Shown in pieces: positions 3,860 through 34,278 of a stretch of DNA of 34,278 bases. Below the pieces are notes generated by a model that had not been told where the DNA came from, did not search any database, and worked only from the letters and a program-made list of their open reading frames with translations. Each line of letters begins with the position of its first letter. Position 1 is the first letter of the stretch. The translations under genes were made by a program, and so were the position numbers. Source of the DNA: Propionibacteriaceae bacterium (GTDB lineage: Bacteria; Actinomycetota; Actinomycetes; Propionibacteriales; Propionibacteriaceae); NCBI GenBank assembly GCA_009782915.1, contig WRIC01000018.1, forward strand, positions 1 to 34,278, in the 5' to 3' direction.

Positions 3860-4016
3860 GCGTCAGGGATTTCGGCATCACACAGGCCGCGAGGAGCGGT
3901 CGGTCACGAAAATGGGACTTGACTGAGAGGAAAAACATGGAAAACTAGCAGGGAAGGGATTCACCCTCCACTAAGGATCGTCGGGCACGTACCGCCCGTG
4001 GAAAGGTAGAACCACT

Positions 4017-5108
4017 ATGGCTACTGTTAGTTTTCAAAATGCTACGCGCATATATCCAGGCTCGGATCATCCGGCTGTCAGCAATTTCTCCCTCGACATT
4101 GGTGATGGGGAATTCATGGTCCTCGTTGGCCCCTCGGGTTGTGGGAAATCCACCTCGCTGAGGATGCTTGCTGGGTTGGAGGAAGTCAATGAGGGTCGGA
4201 TTTTCATTGGCGAGCGTGATGTCACTGATCTGCCGCCCAAGGACCGCGACATTGCGATGGTTTTCCAAAACTATGCCCTCTATCCCCACATGACTGTGGC
4301 CGAAAACATGGGTTTTGCTCTGAAGATGGCTGGCGTTCCCAAGGCTGAACGTGATGTACGCGTCGGTGAGGCAGCCAAGTTGCTCGGTCTTGAAGAGTAC
4401 CTCACGCGCAAACCGAAGGCTCTTTCTGGTGGTCAGCGTCAGCGCGTGGCCATGGGTCGTGCAATCGTGCGTAATCCGCAGGTCTTCCTGATGGATGAGC
4501 CGCTATCGAACCTGGATGCCAAGTTGCGCGTGTCCACCCGTACCCAAATCGCCGCACTTCAAGCCCAGCAGGGTGCCACCACTGTTTATGTGACCCACGA
4601 CCAGGTTGAGGCCATGACCATGGGACACCGTGTGGCGGTCATGAAGGATGGTCTACTCCAGCAGGTGGATTCCCCACTGACCCTCTATCATTCGCCTGAG
4701 AATCTTTTTGTGGCAGGGTTCATTGGTTCCCCAGCGATGAACCTGCTCGTGGGTGATGTGGTGGACAAGGGCGTCCAAATCGGTGACTATGTGGTCCCGG
4801 TTGCCCGCGACGTACTGGCTAAAGCCAAGGGCGAGAAGACCCTCACTCTCGGCATTCGCCCCGAGTCTTTCGAGGTGGCCAAGACCGGGATATCGATGGA
4901 TGTCTCGGTCGTGGAGGAACTGGGTTCTGACACCTTCCTTTATGCCACCTTGGCAGGGTTGGATGATGTCGCGCGCCTCACTGCACAGCAGATTGTTGCG
5001 CGCACACCCACAGGTCACTCTGTTCAGGCAGGGTCACAGGTTCGACTTAATGCACCCAGTGATTCGATTCACGTGTTCTCCAACGAAACACAGTTGCGTT
5101 TGTCGTAG
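4017..5108 (+). CDS. msiK: Sugar ABC transporter ATP-binding protein, MsiK/UgpC-like
   Basis: This cytoplasmic ATPase energises carbohydrate uptake. Walker A is GPSGCGKST (38-46), the Q-loop is in VFQNYALYPHMTV, the signature is LSGGQRQ (136-142), Walker B is FLMDEPLSNLD and the switch histidine is in YVTHDQ. The C-terminal ~120 residues form the TOBE/MalK-type regulatory fold, and IGSPAMN is typical of the UgpC/MsiK branch. Its length of 363 is normal for the family. ATG 4017 follows GGAAAGG. No permease or binding protein is adjacent. In actinobacteria that is the usual situation for MsiK, which serves several separately encoded oligosaccharide transporters; the shared role here is inferred from this context. 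Paired GTCCC/GGGAC hairpins follow the stop. Confidence 0.88.
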   Translation: MATVSFQNATRIYPGSDHPAVSNFSLDIGDGEFMVLVGPSGCGKSTSLRMLAGLEEVNEGRIFIGERDVTDLPPKDRDIAMVFQNYALYPHMTVAENMGFALKMAGVPKAERDVRVGEAAKLLGLEEYLTRKPKALSGGQRQRVAMGRAIVRNPQVFLMDEPLSNLDAKLRVSTRTQIAALQAQQGATTVYVTHDQVEAMTMGHRVAVMKDGLLQQVDSPLTLYHSPENLFVAGFIGSPAMNLLVGDVVDKGVQIGDYVVPVARDVLAKAKGEKTLTLGIRPESFEVAKTGISMDVSVVEELGSDTFLYATLAGLDDVARLTAQQIVARTPTGHSVQAGSQVRLNAPSDSIHVFSNETQLRLS

Positions 5109-9726: not shown

Positions 9727-10060
9727 ATCTAACTCCGTCACCCTGTGCCGACTGTGACAGTGGTGCCTGTCCCCGCTGGACTCTCACGTAGAACCCGGCT
9801 CCGTCACCCTGCGCGAAGTCGCAGGGTCCAGAAACCAAATTTTCTACGACTGTGGAGTCTGGATTCCGTGACTTTGCACGGAATGACGAGGGTGTGACTG
9901 TGGAGTCTGGATTCCGTGTCTTCGCACGGAATGACGAGGGTGTGACTGTGGAGTCTGGATTCTGCGACTGCGCATAGAATGACAGGGGTTGAGTGCGCTG
10001 GTGGGGACAGGGTGGGCGTACAAAAGACATGATGAGAGATAAGTGAAGTAGGATTCTCAG
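9727..10060. other. Repeat-filled gap between cysS and rlmB
   Basis: No gene is visible in these 334 bases. The gap holds a GTGACAG...CCTGTCCCC element at 9754-9774 (a variant of family C, partly mirrored by GTGGGGACAGG near 10001), a full family A copy at 9803-9887 and a 48-bp tandem array of family A half-units from 9848 to 9983. The last ~30 bases carry the rlmB ribosome binding site (TAGGA). Confidence 0.7.
9803..9983. repeat. Family A copy extended into a 48-bp tandem array
   Basis: A full element (GTCACCCTGCGCGAAGTCG to CACGGAATGAC, 9803-9887) is followed by repeats of its right module. GACTGTGGAGTCTGGATTC begins at 9848, 9896 and 9944, an exact 48-bp period. The three hairpins differ by compensating changes (TGACTTTGCA, TGTCTTCGCA, CGACTGCGCA). 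Local duplication of half-elements is visible directly. Confidence 0.85.
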
Positions 10061-11296: not shown

Positions 11297-12109
11297 GTGG
11301 TGAGTTCTCATGATGGCCAGGGGTTGGGGGTTCCCCAGAGTCATTATCCGCAATTTATTCCAGCCCAACCCGTCGATAGTGATGCAGCCACAGTCTTGGG
11401 TGGTTCCAGTGGGCCGGGGGTATACGGAACCCCATCAGATAGCCCTGGACCGTACCCACAAACAGGCCCCAACCAAACAGGCCCCTACCATCAACCTCCG
11501 CCCAAGTCAGGCCGTGGTCTGGTGTTGATTCTGATTCTTGTCGCTGCGTTTGCCCTGGTGTGTGCCATGATATGGGTCGTCACCGCGCAGACGGGCAGGG
11601 ATGAGCCCGATCCGACACCCGAGCCCACCATCACTGTTGATTGGCCAACACCAACCCCAACCCCCAAACCGACACCCACCACCCCAGCGCCAACACCCAC
11701 CGGCCCGTACAAGCGTGAACGCGATCCGATCACTGAGGTGGAGAAACAGAGCTATGGCTATCTGTTCAAGGGCGCGTGTGTGAACAATCGCCCTCCGGAC
11801 TACGAGCAGCCGGTTCCCACTGTTGATTGTGAGCAACCCCACACCGATCAGGTTATGGGTTTCGTTGATCTGTCTGATGACCAAATGAATATCAATGATC
11901 TTCTCGATTTTGAGATGAAGGTCGCTCAGCGATGCAATTCACTCAAAGCAACCCTGCCGGTTCCGGAAGAATTCAACCGCGGCGTACGCGCCACCTACCC
12001 CGATGCAGACATGTGGAACGATGGGGTGAGGCTCGCTTTGTGTTGGGTGCCGGTGTCCAACAAAACCTGGGTGGGGTCAGTTCTTGATGGTACGGCCCGG
12101 ATGATCTAG
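11297..12109 (+). CDS. Membrane-anchored protein with Septum_form-like extracellular domain
   Basis: This 270-residue protein has a Gly/Pro/Gln-rich cytoplasmic N-terminus (1-70), one membrane helix (about 74-96), a Pro/Thr-rich linker with PTPTP repeats (about 103-136) and a compact extracellular domain (about 145-270). That domain has four cysteines (C161, C178, C213, C249). The pattern GACVN...VDCEQPHTDQVMGFV is typical of the actinobacterial Septum_form domain, in which the cysteines are expected to form two disulphides. Members are loosely linked to cell-division or envelope functions; the biochemical role is unknown. GTG 11297 or the adjacent GTG 11300 is the start. It converges on rsmI. 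Confidence 0.65.
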   Translation: MVSSHDGQGLGVPQSHYPQFIPAQPVDSDAATVLGGSSGPGVYGTPSDSPGPYPQTGPNQTGPYHQPPPKSGRGLVLILILVAAFALVCAMIWVVTAQTGRDEPDPTPEPTITVDWPTPTPTPKPTPTTPAPTPTGPYKRERDPITEVEKQSYGYLFKGACVNNRPPDYEQPVPTVDCEQPHTDQVMGFVDLSDDQMNINDLLDFEMKVAQRCNSLKATLPVPEEFNRGVRATYPDADMWNDGVRLALCWVPVSNKTWVGSVLDGTARMI

Positions 12110-13057: not shown

Positions 13058-14974
13058 ATGAGCGAGTCTGTGCATGGTGACCAACCGCGATCTAACCGTG
13101 TCGCACCCTCACCACGTACCCGCCAACGTATCGAACAGGCTCGCGCTCAGGCCTCCCAGGAGCGCCAGGCTGCTGGGTTTACAGAAAAACCGGAGGAGCA
13201 GATCGGTCGTGCCTTGGCTTTGCTGGAGCCGCCCGCACGCCAGTGGACACCTGCGCCGACTGATCCCCCTCGAGTACGTGTCGCGCAACCTGCCGGAACC
13301 CAAGGCGACCTCCGGCCATCACTGGCGCATCACACCACAGTAACCCCACCACCCAAAACAACCACTTCACTGATCGGCTCGGTTCTGGATGCGAGCCATC
13401 CTCGTACCTCACCGTTGGCTACCGCGATCGAACGCTTGGCAAGCCCACTGCCGACCGACAGGGTCATGGGGTGGGTGGTGACCTTGGCGATCACCGGGCT
13501 GGCTTTCCTGATTCGTGTCGTCCATCTGGGTACACCGAAGACCATCATGTTTGATGAAACCTATTACGCCAAGGATGCGTGGAGTCTGCTTCGTTTTGGG
13601 TACGAGGGCAGGTGGACTGGTGAGGATGGTGAAGCGAATGCTGCGGTGGCCCGAGGTGACTATTCTTTCCTGAGCGCCGATGGTTCCTGGGCTGTGCATC
13701 CGCCCTTGGGGAAATGGTTGATTGCCTCAGGGGAGTGGTTGTTTGGGTTGAATGCTTTCGGGTGGAGGTTTGCTTCCCTGATCGCTGGGACACTCATGGT
13801 TTTCGTGGTGATTCGTTTGGCGCGTCGCTTGTCTCACTCCACCTTGATTGGGGGGCTGGCGGGTTTCCTTCTCACCATGGATGGGCTGCATTTCGTGTTG
13901 TCACGGATTGCTTTGCTCGACATTTTTCAGGCACTGTTCATCGTGGCAGGGGTGAGTTGTGTCGTCGCGGATCGTGATTTCTTCCGCAACCGGTTGGCAA
14001 ATCGGCTCACGGCTGAGGAGATCCCTGGTTTGGGTGGCATCGTGGGGCCCGTTATTTTCCGCCCCTGGCTACTGGCTGCGGGGGTTTTCTTGGGGCTAGG
14101 GTGTGCTGTCAAATGGAACACGATCTATGTTGTGGCTGTGTTTGGGATCCTCGTGGTGGTGTGGTCGCTGTCTGCTCGCCGCTTGGCTGGGGCAGGACGC
14201 AACACGTGGCGCGGGTTATATGTGGATGGTGTTCCTGGGTTTATTTCCCTGGTTGTGGTGGGCTTCTTTGCGTACCTTTCCACCTGGATTCCTTGGCTGC
14301 GATCCACTGGCGCCTACGGGCGTGATTGGGGGGTGAATAATCCTGATGCTTTCTCGACCCGCACCTTCGGGGAAGGGTTAGCGTCATGGGCTCACTGGCA
14401 TCAGATCACTTTCGACTTCCACACCGGCGAGGGTTTGGCCAAGGCGACCCACACCTATCAGTCGAGTCCATGGAGTTGGCCTTTCGTGGGGCGTACGGTG
14501 GGGATCTATGCCGATAATGGGATCGAGCCTGGTGTCGATGGGTGTACGGCTGCGGTGGGGGAGACCTGCATGAGGGTCGTGACGGCTTTAGGGACACCGT
14601 TGTTGTGGTGGGCGGCATCTGTGGCGATGGTGTTTGCCCTGATCTGGTGGGTGGCGGGAATGGATTGGCGTTTCTCCGTCGTGGTGTGTGGCATGGCGGC
14701 CACCTGGATTCCGTGGATGACGGTGGGTTCGCGTCCGATTTTCTCGTTCTATTCGATCACGATGCTTCCGTTCATGGTGATCGCCTTAGCAATGGCTCTC
14801 GGGGTTCTCCTTGGGCCGGTCGGTTCAAATCGCCGAGAATCGGGTTCTATCGGGGCTGGTACGCTCGTGGCTCTCATCGTGCTCAATTTCGCATTCCTCT
14901 ACCCGATCCTGACCGGCGCGCTCATCCCGCGCAGTCACTGGCAGTGGCGAATCTGGCTCCCCGGCTGGGTGTGA
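13058..14974 (+). CDS. pmt: Dolichyl-phosphate-mannose-protein mannosyltransferase (PMT/GT39 family)
   Basis: Transfers mannose from polyprenyl-phosphate mannose to Ser/Thr of exported proteins, at the outer face of the membrane. After a cytoplasmic N-terminus of ~130 residues come about ten membrane segments. The first extracellular loop has the catalytic Asp-Glu in FDETYYAKDA and the conserved HPPLGKW motif, both diagnostic for bacterial PMTs. A WNTIYV segment and a C-terminal SHWQWRIWLPGWV end also fit the family. I chose ATG 13058; GTG 13052 is possible, while ATG 13031 would overlap the divergent rsmI start. The length of 638 from 13058 is slightly longer than M. tuberculosis Pmt because of the N-terminal extension. 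Pro/Thr-rich exported proteins in this window, such as the Septum_form-like protein, are plausible substrates by inference. Confidence 0.9.
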   Translation: MSESVHGDQPRSNRVAPSPRTRQRIEQARAQASQERQAAGFTEKPEEQIGRALALLEPPARQWTPAPTDPPRVRVAQPAGTQGDLRPSLAHHTTVTPPPKTTTSLIGSVLDASHPRTSPLATAIERLASPLPTDRVMGWVVTLAITGLAFLIRVVHLGTPKTIMFDETYYAKDAWSLLRFGYEGRWTGEDGEANAAVARGDYSFLSADGSWAVHPPLGKWLIASGEWLFGLNAFGWRFASLIAGTLMVFVVIRLARRLSHSTLIGGLAGFLLTMDGLHFVLSRIALLDIFQALFIVAGVSCVVADRDFFRNRLANRLTAEEIPGLGGIVGPVIFRPWLLAAGVFLGLGCAVKWNTIYVVAVFGILVVVWSLSARRLAGAGRNTWRGLYVDGVPGFISLVVVGFFAYLSTWIPWLRSTGAYGRDWGVNNPDAFSTRTFGEGLASWAHWHQITFDFHTGEGLAKATHTYQSSPWSWPFVGRTVGIYADNGIEPGVDGCTAAVGETCMRVVTALGTPLLWWAASVAMVFALIWWVAGMDWRFSVVVCGMAATWIPWMTVGSRPIFSFYSITMLPFMVIALAMALGVLLGPVGSNRRESGSIGAGTLVALIVLNFAFLYPILTGALIPRSHWQWRIWLPGWV

Positions 14975-26107: not shown

Positions 26108-26172
26108 GTGACACATGGGGCCGGTATTAACTGTCACTCCCTGTGACACATGGGGTCGGTATTAACTGTCAC
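26108..26172. repeat. Family B repeat, two tandem units
   Basis: GTGACACATGGGG(C/T)CGGTATTAACTGTCAC occurs at 26108-26137 and 26143-26172, a 35-bp period with one difference between units. Each unit starts GTGACA and ends TGTCAC, so it can form a hairpin. The core GGTATTAACTG is the reverse complement of the CAGTTAATACC core at 32161-32444. Confidence 0.85.
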
Positions 26173-30509: not shown

Positions 30510-30880
30510 TTGTTCTTGATGCTTGCGTACTCATCGCTTTTGTTGACCGTACTCACCATTTTCATCATGACGCCAGGATTGTTTTGTCTCATCCAGAACA
30601 GTTCGTCATCTCTGCACTGACCGCAGCCGAGGTCATGGTGTATCCCCTTGAATCTGATCATGGGGATTGGTTGAACCTTTTCCGTGATCTGGGTGTGGCT
30701 ATTGTTGCCATTGAAGAAGAAAATGTTCCCGGTATTGCTGAGATGCGACGCGTTTCGGGTTTGAGGATGCCTGATGCTTTGGTGCTCTGGTTAGCCCAGA
30801 ACAGTGGTTCCAGCATTGCTACTTTTGATGCTCAATTGATCAAGAGAGCTCAAGAGCTGGGTGTCGCTGTGGCGACGTAA
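30497..30880 (+). CDS. VapC-like PIN-domain toxin, second pair
   Basis: This 127-residue PIN-domain ribonuclease has the complete acidic set: D8 in VIVLDACVLIAF, E45 in LTAAEVMVYP, D93 in GLRMPDALVL and D111 in SIATFDAQL. The predicted active site is therefore intact. GTG 30497 is the likely start, overlapping the antitoxin gene by 13 bases; GTG 30506 is possible. The sequence differs clearly from the first toxin, in which the second acidic position is not conserved. It ends about 100 bases before meaB on the same strand, so read-through into meaB is possible. Confidence 0.85.
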   Translation: MATVIVLDACVLIAFVDRTHHFHHDARIVLSHPEQFVISALTAAEVMVYPLESDHGDWLNLFRDLGVAIVAIEEENVPGIAEMRRVSGLRMPDALVLWLAQNSGSSIATFDAQLIKRAQELGVAVAT

Positions 30881-30983
30881 AAAGCTGGGACTGCAGTGGC
30901 TGGGGCTCACCATCTCAGCGTTATCGGTGGAGACCTTATACGATAATCTTGAACCCAGTAACCCAGAGGGAAGTGAGGTGCAC

Positions 30984-32006
30984 ATGAATAACCAGGCTGG
31001 TGTTTATTCTGTTGCTGACCTTGCTCAGGGCGTGATTGCGGGCAACCGTCGCCAGATTGCGCGGGCGATCACTTTGGTGGAGTCGATGAAAATCGATGAT
31101 CGGGCCAGGGCGCGTGAGTTGCTGGGAATTTTGCGGGATCATCCCACAAAGGCAGTACGCATCGGGGTGACGGGTGTACCGGGGGCGGGGAAGTCGACGT
31201 TCATTGATGCCATGGGGGTTCGCCTGATTGAGAAGGGCCACAAGGTTGCTGTGCTGGCGGTGGACCCGTCCTCATCGAAAACAGGTGGATCGATCTTGGG
31301 GGATCGTACTCGCATGGGTGCCTTGGCCGTGAATGATGATGCGTTCATTCGCCCTTCACCATCGGGGAACCACCTGGGTGGGGTGGCGCGTGCCACACGT
31401 GAGTCGATGCTCGTGGTGGAGGCCGCCGGTTATGACGTCGTACTGGTGGAAACCGTGGGGGTTGGCCAATCTGAGGTTGCTGTCGCAGGAATGGTGGATA
31501 CCTTCTTGTTGGTGACTCTGGCGCGTGCCGGTGACCAACTCCAGGGGATCAAAAAGGGGATCTTGGAGATGGCGGACATTATCACCGTCAACAAGGCTGA
31601 TGGCGATAATGAGGCGGCGGCCCGGGTTGCAGCACGTGAGCTGTCGACTGCGATGAAGCTGATTACTGCTGATCCGAAGGCTAGGCGCCCACCGGTGTTG
31701 ACCTCCTCCTCGTACACCGGTATCGGTTTGGAGGAACTGTGGGAGTCGATCCTGGAGCACCGCGCGTACCTGGAGAAAACTGGTGGACTGGCATCGCGTC
31801 GTGCCCGCCAGCAACGCGACTGGATGTGGTCCCTGATTGATGACGAGTTGTTGGAGTCAGTACGCCAAACTCGCGCAGTCAAGGATGTTCGTGGTCGTCT
31901 CGAATCCGAGGTCATGGACGGTACGACCTCCGCCATGGAAGCCGCCCAAGAGGTACTCACCACTTTCGCGGCCCACCTCCCCCACACCTGGATGACCGAC
32001 GAGTAG
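30984..32006 (+). CDS. meaB: Methylmalonyl-CoA mutase-associated GTPase MeaB
   Basis: A G3E-family GTPase that protects methylmalonyl-CoA mutase and gates adenosylcobalamin loading. The P-loop is GVPGAGKST (about 64-72), followed by VDPSSSKTGGSILGDRTRM (the switch region), VETVGVGQSE (Walker B/switch) and NKADGDN (guanine recognition). The C-terminal helices form the dimerisation arm. ATG 30984 is chosen because GAGG precedes it and the family begins at this point; the open frame extends to 30861 and overlaps the toxin gene. The length of 340 is typical. It lies on the same strand as mutAB but is separated from them by the 21.5-31 kb stretch, whereas in many genomes meaB is adjacent to mutB. 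Confidence 0.92.
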   Translation: MNNQAGVYSVADLAQGVIAGNRRQIARAITLVESMKIDDRARARELLGILRDHPTKAVRIGVTGVPGAGKSTFIDAMGVRLIEKGHKVAVLAVDPSSSKTGGSILGDRTRMGALAVNDDAFIRPSPSGNHLGGVARATRESMLVVEAAGYDVVLVETVGVGQSEVAVAGMVDTFLLVTLARAGDQLQGIKKGILEMADIITVNKADGDNEAAARVAARELSTAMKLITADPKARRPPVLTSSSYTGIGLEELWESILEHRAYLEKTGGLASRRARQQRDWMWSLIDDELLESVRQTRAVKDVRGRLESEVMDGTTSAMEAAQEVLTTFAAHLPHTWMTDE

Positions 32007-32072
32007 GGTCGCAACCCCGTCCACTGTGTCTGAAAGCAACTACCCATCCCTATCTGCAACCGTCACCAACCC

Positions 32073-32520
32073 CGTCTTTCTGCGCGAAGTCGCAGAATCC
32101 AGACTCCACAGTTGAACGAGTGTGGTTTCTGGACCCTGCGACTTCGCGCAGGGTGACGAGAGTTGGTCGTGGCAGTTAATACCGACCACAACTGTCAGAC
32201 CAGAGTTGGTCGTGACAGTTAATACCGACCACAACTGTCAAAGCACATCCAACCCGTCCACGCAGTGCACCCACCCCGTCTTTCTGCGCGAAGTCGCAGA
32301 ATCCAGACTCCACAGTTGAACGAGTGTGAGTTCTGGACCCTGCGACTTCGCGCAGGGTGACGAGAGTTGGTCGTGGCAGTTAATACCGACCACAACTGTC
32401 AGACCAGAGTTGGTCGTGGCAGTTAATACCGACCACAACTGTCAAAGCACATCCAACCCGTCCACGCAGTGCACCCACCCCGTCTTTCTGCGCGAAGTCG
32501 CAGAATCCAGACTCCACGGT
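32073..32520. repeat. 204-bp composite tandem repeat (families A and B fused), 2.2 copies
   Basis: Unit 1 is 32073-32276, unit 2 is 32277-32480, and unit 3 breaks off near 32520. Each unit contains a full family A element (CGTCTTTCTGCGCGAAGTCG to CGCGCAGGGTGAC), two family B units (AGTTGGTCGTGGCAGTTAAT, then ACCGACCACAACTGTCA, 43-bp period) and a short linker AAAGCACATCCAACCCGTCC. The two full units differ at only a few positions (TGTGGTTTCTGG versus TGTGAGTTCTGG; GTGACAGTT versus GTGGCAGTT), so the duplication is recent. Confidence 0.92.
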
Positions 32521-32528
32521 TGCCTGTC

Positions 32529-32557
32529 TGGACACTGGAAATCACTCGTAGTAAACT
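32529..32557 (+). promoter_or_regulatory. clpB promoter
   Basis: TGGACA (32529-32534) and TAAACT (32552-32557) with a 17-base spacer. The boxes begin right after the end of the partial 204-bp repeat, and the -10 box touches the HAIR operator. Confidence 0.55.
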
Positions 32558-32576
32558 TGAGCGAAGTACACTCAAC
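32556..32576 (+). promoter_or_regulatory. HAIR operator (HspR-binding inverted repeat)
   Basis: CTTGAGC at 32556-32562, seven bases, then ACTCAAC at 32570-32576. This matches the actinobacterial HAIR consensus CTTGAGT-N7-ACTCAAG at 12 of 14 positions. It overlaps the -10 region and lies 14 bases before the clpB start, as expected for heat-shock repression by HspR. Confidence 0.8.
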
Positions 32577-32590
32577 TTTGGAGGACTGTG

Positions 32591-34278
32591 ATGGATGTTG
32601 AGAAGCTGACTGCGATGAGTCGTGATGCTTATAGTGCGGCGACTCGTACTGCGTTGACGAATGGGAATCCTGCTGTGGAGCCGGAACACCTGTTGTCGGC
32701 GTTGTTGCTGATTCCCGACAATACGGTGGGTCCGCTGCTGGAGTCTGTGGGTGCTGATCCGACTCAGATCGAGACCGAAGCCAAGAAACTCATCTCGAAA
32801 CTCCCTGCGGCCTCGGGGTCCTCGGTGGCGCAGCCCACTCTCTCGGGTGGACTGGCACGCGTACTGGCGGAAGCAGAAACCCAGGCACACACCATGGGTG
32901 ACCAGTTTGTGGCGACCGAGCACCTGCTGATTGGTTTGGCTACGGTGAAATCAGAGGTACGGGACCTGCTGGAGAAGCTTGGATCTTCGGCCAAACAACT
33001 CATCGAGGCCTTCAATGAAAGACGCGGGGGTAAGCGTGTGACCTCAGCAGCCTCTGAGGGTGGGGAGTCGGCTCTCGACAAATACTCGGTCGACCTGACT
33101 GAGTTGGCCCGTGACGGGAAACTCGATCCGGTGATTGGGCGCGACTCGGAGATTCGCCGCATCGTGCAAGTCCTGGCGCGCCGTACCAAAAACAACCCTG
33201 TCATCATTGGCGAACCAGGCGTGGGTAAGTCAGCGGTTGTCGATGGGCTCGCCCAGAGGATCGTGGCCGGTGACGTACCCGATTCTCTCAAAGGGCGCCG
33301 ACTAGTGTCGCTCGATTTGGCGTCGATGGTAGCGGGTGCGAAATTCCGTGGGGAGTTCGAGGAGCGCCTCAAAGCCGTACTGGGGGAAATCAAGGAAGCC
33401 GAGGGGCAGATCATCACGTTCATCGATGAACTGCACACCATGGTGGGCGCGGGCGCATCCGGGGATTCCGCAATGGATGCGGGCAATATGTTGAAGCCGA
33501 TGTTGGCACGCGGCGAACTGCGCATGATCGGTGCGACCACGCTGGATGAGTATCGCGAGCGCATCGAGAAAGATCCGGCGTTGGAGAGGCGATTCCAGCA
33601 GGTGTATGTGGGCGAGCCGTCGGTGGAGGACACGATTGCGATCCTGCGCGGGTTGAGGGAGAGGTACGAGGCGCACCACAAGGTACGCATCACCGACTCG
33701 GCTCTGGTGGCGGCTTCAACATTGTCGCATCGATATATTACGTCGCGGCAGTTGCCGGACAAGGCGATTGATTTGGTAGATGAGGCGGCCTCGCGGTTGC
33801 GCATGGAGATTGATTCCTCACCGGAGGCGATTGACGAGTTGCGTCGCCAAGTGGATCGGATGACCATGGAGCAGTTTGCTTTGGAGAAGGAGGATGATCC
33901 GTCGTCAAAGGAGCGCTTGGGGCGTTTGCAGGCGGAGTTGGCAGATCATCAGGAGCGGTTGCGCGTACTGGAATCAACGTGGACTGAGGAAAAGTCGGGC
34001 CTCAACGAGGTCGGCGATATCAAGGAGATCATTGACCGGGTACGCATCGAGGCGGATCGGGCCCAGCGTGAGGGTGACCTGACGAAGGCTTCGGAGTTGC
34101 TGTATGCCGAGTTGCCCAAGTTGGAGGAGCGTTTGGCGCGGGCTGCGGAGGCGCGCAGCTCGTACACGATGGTGTCGGAGGAGGTCGATGCGAGTGATAT
34201 CGCTGAGGTGGTGTCGGCGTGGACCGGGATACCAGTGGGCAAGATGCTCCAGGGTGAGTCGGAGAAACTGCTGGAGAT
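32591..34278 (+). CDS. clpB: ATP-dependent disaggregase ClpB (5' part; runs off the window)
   Basis: A Hsp100 chaperone that rescues aggregated proteins together with DnaK. The visible 562 residues contain the N-terminal Clp repeat domain (1-145), AAA+ domain 1 with Walker A GEPGVGKS (207-214), Walker B ITFIDE (275-280), the pore-loop region [13 protein letters not shown] and sensor/arginine-finger LERRFQ, then the coiled-coil middle domain (about 400-520) that separates ClpB from ClpA/C. The last residues ([13 protein letters not shown]) are the linker entering AAA+ domain 2, which lies outside the window; about 300 residues are missing. ATG 32591 follows GGAGG with six bases of spacing. The HAIR operator predicts HspR control. 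Confidence 0.95.

Follow-up and report, generated by a model that had tools for sequence, protein, structure and literature searches.

The window, by which we mean the whole 34,278-nucleotide (nt) stretch of DNA that was analyzed, belongs to a 1.64-Mb Propionibacteriaceae genome assembled in 33 contigs with 93.5% completeness; the nearest named relatives are termite-gut metagenome bins. Toward the end of the window meaB is followed on the same strand by clpB, and the gap between the two genes holds a tandem array of palindromic elements. The features of this region are as follows.

30861 to 32006, + strand: meaB, the upstream neighbor, encoding the methylmalonyl-CoA mutase-associated GTPase (Pfam MeaB, 5.4e-106); start codon uncertain
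32064 to 32267, + strand: unit 1 of the 204-bp duplication, starting with the meaB-side REP flank type, CACCAACC
32073 to 32158: element A copy 1, a head-to-head dimer of CGTC-tagged REPs (32073 to 32110, + strand; 32121 to 32158, − strand)
32169 to 32197, + strand: element B core, copy 1
32212 to 32240, + strand: element B core, copy 2
32241 to 32267, + strand: 27-nt tail of unit 1
32268 to 32471, + strand: unit 2, whose REP is chimeric, being of the clpB-side type at position 5 and of the meaB-side type at position 47
32277 to 32362: element A copy 2, the same dimer type (REPs 32277 to 32314, + strand; 32325 to 32362, − strand)
32373 to 32401, + strand: element B core, copy 3
32416 to 32444, + strand: element B core, copy 4
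32445 to 32471, + strand: 27-nt tail of unit 2
32472 to 32522, + strand: clpB-proximal REP half (third copy, 51 nt); a REP lies at the aligned position in congener G006
32529 to 32557, + strand: clpB promoter-like pair TGGACA-17-TAAACT (spacing compared by eye)
32556 to 32576, + strand: inverted repeat CTTGAGC-N7-ACTCAAC (read by eye)
32591 to 34276, + strand: clpB, running off the window (Pfam AAA_lid_9, Clp_N, and AAA)

The two full units and the exact 204-bp period described in a first-pass annotation of this DNA are borne out: 32064 to 32267 and 32268 to 32471 share 200 of 204 bases (98% identity), with mismatches at unit positions 5, 62, 63, and 152, and TRF gives a period of 204, 2.2 copies, and a score of 883. 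That annotation began the repeat at 32073, the first base of element A, but the periodicity starts 9 nt before it. The third copy has two mismatches to unit 1, at positions 5 and 47, and one to unit 2, at 47. The make-up of each unit is also as proposed, one element A and two elements B (an 86-nt A, 29-nt B cores at 43-bp spacing, and the 27-nt tail), and A and B are separate families, represented in the genome by 320 A-half and 21 B cores (patterns at ≤3 mismatches; the reversed-pattern control gave 0 for each).

Among the matches listed for this genome and 39 relatives, no complete 204-bp unit lay outside the interval, and the best partial matches listed, both on contig 19, covered 126 of the 204 bp at 91% and 173 bp at 79%. 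The sole further genome match to the 27-nt tail among those listed was on contig 1 (84924 to 84953, 100%), before an A dimer. No Rfam family was found in the array at gathering thresholds; the only Rfam match in the window, above gathering score, is an msiK RNA at 3956 to 4015, upstream of an open reading frame at 4017.

The promoter-like sequence T[GA]GACA-17-TAAACT occurs in three of the four congeners that have meaB near clpB (loci L081, L095, and L064) and was not seen at L084. Because L095 and L064 have it without this REP, the clpB promoter is not REP-made, and that idea was discarded. At L095 (3150 to 3580, WQYJ01000061.1) the meaB-clpB gap contains other palindromes, of the GGTCATCCTGCCTTCGGCAGGACCCCC type. 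The inverted repeat CTTGAGC-N7-ACTCAAC resembles the HspR-binding HAIR element.

Two families of palindromes

Element A consists of two ∼38-nt REPs placed head-to-head. The REP consensus, from an HMM profile trained on stretches of this genome, is CGTCATTCTGCGCGAAGTCGCAGAATCCAGACTCCACA, beginning CGTC. This tag was unpaired at one end in all 34 distinct ungapped halves, a tally that took in only halves aligned from model position 1, which favors the tag. CCA follows the hairpin in 31 of the 34. Seven stem pairs are kept in 97 to 100% of these halves, with some T-A pairs changed to C-G on both sides, and an eighth, outermost pair is present in only 16; the loop is 6 nt in the counted halves and mostly CGAAGT (19/34). 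Among 60 head-to-head dimers, a set chosen for REP matches, 45 paired a TTC-type with a CCC-type arm, 4 paired like with like, and 11 were unclassified.

These features place element A beside the CGTC-tagged REP superfamily (Di Nocera et al. 2013, PMC3733652), which, as that survey characterizes it, has the CGTC tag, the CCA tail, head-to-head dimers often made of unlike arms, and no dedicated transposase. The survey's stem criterion is 8 to 9 bp with the first two pairs A-T, and its families 1 to 4 have loops of 4 to 5 nt, with exceptions reported. Since the loop here is 6 nt, we file A at the level of the superfamily only, in none of the four families. The host phylum, Actinomycetota, is outside the five phyla that the survey gives for CGTC repeats. 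Head-to-head pairs predominate here as in the superfamily (30 head-to-head, 9 tail-to-tail, and 7 head-to-tail adjacent pairs in a 234-kb sample, described below), whereas clusters, rare according to the survey, are not rare in this genome: 12 of 39 REP clusters in the sample had at least three halves or a tandem pair. The RepRanger paper tabulates Acidipropionibacterium thoenii, so Propionibacteriaceae palindromes have already been counted in bulk.

REP cores were counted in 19 genomes at ≤3 mismatches (reversed control, 0). Against the 320 in this genome there were 66 in G006, 103 in G003, 13 in G005, 1 in G012, and none in the remaining 14. A wider search, with ≤2 mismatches allowed, covered a sample of 395 further genomes of the phylum and found the core in none of them; the reversed pattern matched once, in a single genome. 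The window itself opens with a REP dimer, at 43 to 142, and on contig 3 (8700 to 10700, locus L047) two near-identical dimers, at 503 to 587 and 1413 to 1498 of that locus, lie 910 bp apart, which suggests a larger duplicated block. Relative to genes, 26 REP clusters fell in gaps that were unidirectional (15), convergent (7), or divergent (4), versus 48, 14, and 16 such gaps available; 10 further clusters were inside called frames and 3 were unplaced. This tally rests on a gene call too crude to use, and any orientation bias is weak at most.

Element B has a different distribution. Its core was absent from 18 congeners at ≤3 mismatches, and the exact CCAC form was in no viral contig; no plasmid matches were found. 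A second form, B' (GTGACAAAACAGTACCGTCCCC...TGTCAC), has 15 copies in this genome, 1 in G006, and none in the other 17 congeners, including 0 matches in G012 and G014 at ≤3 mismatches. It is in G012 and G014 that nine Y1 (IS200-like) transposase loci were located; PF01797 was positive in 2 of 19 genomes of the genus and in 5 of 14 control genomes. Palindromes of the B' build (GTGACAAA...ACCGTCCCCA...TGTCAC-like) flank the Y1 gene on both sides at loci L035, L036, and L037 and on one side at L038, and B' of such build is scattered in our genome; the remaining five Y1 loci have other ends. The likeness of B to these ends lies in the build and in weak profile scores (best E, 0.003), with no strong alignment. 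Element A was also considered as an end of the congeners' Y1 elements, and this was ruled out: at the nine loci (2.1 to 3.3 kb each) no REP match was significant, the best having an E value of 1.5.

B is thus best read, from its build, as the orphan end of an IS200-like element family. Like the ends of the TIRtrons (TIRYT) described in the 2013 survey, B and the related B' are self-complementary, and their look-alikes flank Y1 genes in two congeners; unlike the TIRtrons as described there, B has no transposase found beside it, and its motif, GGGGWCGG, is one base off the published GGGGWSAS (PMC3733652). On the reverse strand most B and B' copies read GGGGTCGG, GGGGCCGG, or GGGGACGG, with at least one mismatch to GGGGWSAS. 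Two tandem B copies occur in the window at 26109 to 26172, where the nearest REP is ∼1.26 kb off, which suggests that B duplicates on its own. A further small repeat, of the AGGGGACGGGGCGTTTGTCACG type, is found at 2877 to 2930 of the window and at L041 (2541 to 2598), L171, and L212; it is tandem in several places, with no REP overlapped, and it looks like another GTGACA...CCGTCCCC palindrome family.

The joining of A and B extends beyond the array. Five further places in this genome, on contigs 19, 21, 6, 14, and 23, have a B no more than 15 nt from a REP. Seven of the 21 B copies (4 in the array, 2 on contig 19, and 1 on contig 21) share a GTTGGTC flank and the CCAC spelling and sit between two REPs whose tags face B, and on contig 19 the A-plus-B unit is tandem too (130 bp × 2.1). 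The copy at C6:115 has the CCAC spelling, with a REP 6 nt to its right. The diverged B on contig 14 also sits between two REPs with tags facing it, and neither it nor the B on contig 23 has the shared flank. At each place the A dimers beside the GTTGGTC-flanked copies have different centers; thus, A-B-A did not move whole, and the joined A-B segment has probably spread via recombination in REPs and not as a complete unit. Since none of the 18 congeners had B at ≤3 mismatches, none was seen with the fusion. The first-pass annotation had made its case depend on the fusion occurring in another genome or on a varying copy number; the former was not seen in these congeners.

Direct REPs in a congener and the origin of the array

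The nearest named congener is isolate Nt197P3bin38 (locus L081, contig WRIJ01000013.1), which we take to be genome G006. In its meaB-clpB gap, of ∼2.5 kb, two REPs enclose a Phd/YefM-ParE toxin-antitoxin pair, a small protein for which Pfam gave no match, and a Fic gene on the reverse strand (L081, 4270 to 6400). These REPs form the ends of the gap (11863 to 11906 and 14167 to 14209), and both are on the minus strand, the same strand as meaB. The flank is CAACCGTCACCAACC on the meaB side and CACCCACCCCGTCTTT on the clpB side. In the array the start of unit 1 aligns with the CAACCGTCACCAACC type, and the starts of units 2 and 3 align with the CACCCACCCCGTCTTT type.

Unit 2 combines the two types, for it has C at position 5, like unit 3, and A at position 47, like unit 1. 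The switch therefore falls between unit positions 6 and 46, inside the REP, and such a chimeric REP is, on these diagnostic bases, what unequal crossover or slippage between direct REPs should produce at its junction. The two sites could instead reflect independent substitutions or gene conversion among the ∼320 REPs. The third copy was described in the first-pass annotation as breaking off where the −35 box of clpB begins. It does end there, 6 nt before the TGGACA at 32529, but because G006 has a REP at the aligned place by the clpB promoter, we read the apparently broken copy as the old clpB-side REP, older than the duplication and not cut short by it. Identity in the aligned blocks of G006 is only 68 to 92%, and the loops of its end REPs are longer; the ancestral state is thus reconstructed by inference from this one relative.

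The duplication had also been called recent, which is supported relative to the nearest congener. Setting aside position 5, where the end REPs already differed, we count 3 mismatches in 204 sites between the units, versus 4 of 62 between this genome and G006 in the adjoining meaB-side flank, counted from the meaB stop codon. Together with the failure to find B in the other genomes searched, this fits an event after the split from G006.

These observations suggest the following history. Before the duplication the gap would have contained a pair of like-oriented CGTC-tagged REPs, the first close to meaB and the second abutting the clpB promoter. In the lineage of this genome the DNA between them would have come to consist of the right half of the first A dimer, two B palindromes, and the 27-nt tail. 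The direct REPs could then have mispaired over ∼51 bp of homology, within a hairpin that could stall replication, and unequal crossover between sister chromosomes or template slippage would have duplicated the first REP and all that lay between it and the second, leaving two full units, with the old second REP as an apparent third. We infer the enzymatic route, the stalling at the hairpin, and a continuing change in copy number, and the mechanism predicts that the number of units at this locus varies.

We therefore regard the array as probably a recombination product of two REP hairpins, a reading built on what can be seen in the aligned DNA: direct REPs in the congener, two flank types, the chimera of unit 2, and the excess of arrays at REPs documented below. 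The array belongs with the known ordered tandem REP clusters, although its partner repeat is unusual, and it was most likely formed by REP-REP recombination or slippage. Ordered tandem REPIN clusters are described in Pseudomonas fluorescens SBW25 (Bertels and Rainey 2011, PMC3116915); as in the clusters presented there, near-identical elements recur in tandem with their flanking DNA. SBW25 is described as carrying RAYT genes, whereas no Y1 transposase was found in our genome; and in contrast to the SBW25 elements as described, the REPs here are CGTC tagged and the second partner is a palindrome unlike a REP. Neisseria dRS3 mosaics, in the 2013 survey's description, interleave CGTC-1 REPs with other repeat families in intergenic DNA, a likeness in layout only (PMC3733652). 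Of the earlier interpretation, the recent tandem duplication of a two-family composite stands, the truncated third copy does not, and the mobile unit and the insulation are unsupported.

Two other origins deserve consideration. If A and B had fused once and the fusion moved and grew as one element, common flanks would be explained: the seven B copies at three places share flank, spelling, and facing REPs, and C6:115 is similar. Yet the centers of the A dimers differ from place to place, the layout on contig 14 without the shared flank may mean that the joining arose more than once, and an initial search of the genome, 93.5% complete as assembled, gave 0 candidates for a Y1 transposase (PF01797), which for this assembly also rules out a RAYT as the driver. 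With no other complete unit listed in the genome-wide search, the stepwise-growing mobile unit that had been proposed is unsupported, and a composite mobile element is very improbable. That a short-read assembler expanded or collapsed one REP-rich unit is likewise highly unlikely. The assembly is in 33 contigs with 93.5% completeness, the nearest named relatives are metagenome bins (the study behind Nt197P3bin38 names Illumina HiSeq), and a REP dimer stands at the start of the window. Against these points, expansion would tend to give identical units, but the units differ at four sites; the spellings at positions 62 and 63, GGTTTCTGG and GAGTTCTGG, are each found in other A copies; and the junction REP is an ordered chimera.

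Alternatively, the array could be a selected regulatory structure that ends or stabilizes the meaB transcript and shields a heat-shock promoter of clpB. In favor of this, the array separates a 3' end from a promoter-like pair that has the same spacing in three relatives, and a single unit has a + strand folding energy of −96.8 kcal/mol (z, −9.06), but a low folding z-score comes with palindrome dimers anyway. The relatives also argue against such a role: clpB was near meaB in four congeners in the DNA covered, and of these the gap of L095 contains palindromes of another type, those of L064 and L084 were not noticed to have any of the array's family, and that of L081 has a ∼2.3-kb cassette between REPs. 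Terminator-like sites with a T-run numbered 0 at the array versus 0.5 expected, which leaves the proposed insulation or termination between meaB and clpB unsupported. We consider a regulatory origin unlikely. Congeners do without the array, and a strong fold is typical of palindromes; we see no need for a selected role. If REP-REP recombination made the array, no dedicated function is needed, and effects on the 3' end of the meaB mRNA or on clpB would be side effects.

Tandem arrays at REPs across the genome

The window and ten 20-kb stretches that were not picked for arrays gave a sample of 234,278 bp, in which we counted 85 REP halves, grouped into 39 clusters, and 43 TRF arrays after merging. 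The meaB-clpB array included, 21 of the 43 overlapped a REP. When arrays were placed at random 500 times, the mean was 1.9 and the maximum 7; these placements took no account of gene gaps, preferred by REPs and arrays alike. Other large REP-overlapping arrays in the sample have periods of 129 and 200 bp, and further REP-bearing arrays are 93 bp × 4, 130 bp × 2.1, 43 bp × 4.6, and 48 bp × 4. The window also has a head-to-tail array of single REPs (48 bp × 2.9) at 9848 to 9987, with another REP at 9802 to 9837. The excess was weaker in the congeners: in 170 kb of G006 a REP was overlapped by 4 of 13 arrays (mean 0.4 and maximum 4 by random placement), and in 75 kb of G003 by 0 of 2.

Among short arrays (periods of 18 to 40), a REP was overlapped by 16 of 29 in the 234-kb sample and by 28 of 40 in a second, REP-selected set of 60,583 bp, and in both sets every overlap was on the CGTC side (16/16 and 28/28, together 44/44). 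Most of these arrays (40/44) contain 8 to 16 nt of the REP, most commonly 13, comprising the tag and one stem arm. The units, ∼24 bp, consist of one REP hairpin arm plus ∼10 nt of local flank; periods are 21 to 27 in 39 of 44, with 24 the commonest in the second set (12/28). Examples are at L045 (545 to 650), L044 (377 to 467), L052 (636 to 725), and L170 (592 to 696). Because the REP end is itself part of the array units, it is unlikely that arrays came first and REPs were inserted into them later.

The polarity is weaker than 44/44 implies, because in a dimer the partner occupies the inner side, which was free at only 47 of 221 REP halves. Among the 42 halves with both sides free there were 9 arrays on the tag side and 0 on the inner side, so the fair count is 9 of 9. 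We suggest tentatively that the CGTC end of REPs may be the birthplace of short tandem arrays that grow outward from the tag, although this must be considered doubtful. A limited search of the literature yielded no description of tag-side arrays at CGTC REPs. The short arrays differ from the 204-bp array, whose bounds are whole REPs; as a hypothesis, the same instability would have given rise to the 204-bp array on a larger scale.

Around the meaB-clpB gap, REPs stand as paired direct repeats whose contents vary, an array in this genome and a toxin-antitoxin pair with a Fic gene in the congener. The wider interest is in the arrays at CGTC tags; such hairpins go with tandem arrays at many places in the genome. 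With ∼320 REP cores, a Y1 transposase unfound, and many REP-anchored arrays, this genome offers a testable footprint of the fate of DNA at a REP. If the polarity is true, it would suggest that something specific happens at the hairpin base: either the polymerase stalls and re-primes, or an enzyme recognizing CGTC-tagged REPs nicks the DNA there. For the spread of these REPs the 2013 survey, in its account, found no transposase (PMC3733652); a nicking enzyme, if there is one, would be the mobilizing activity that they have been said to lack.
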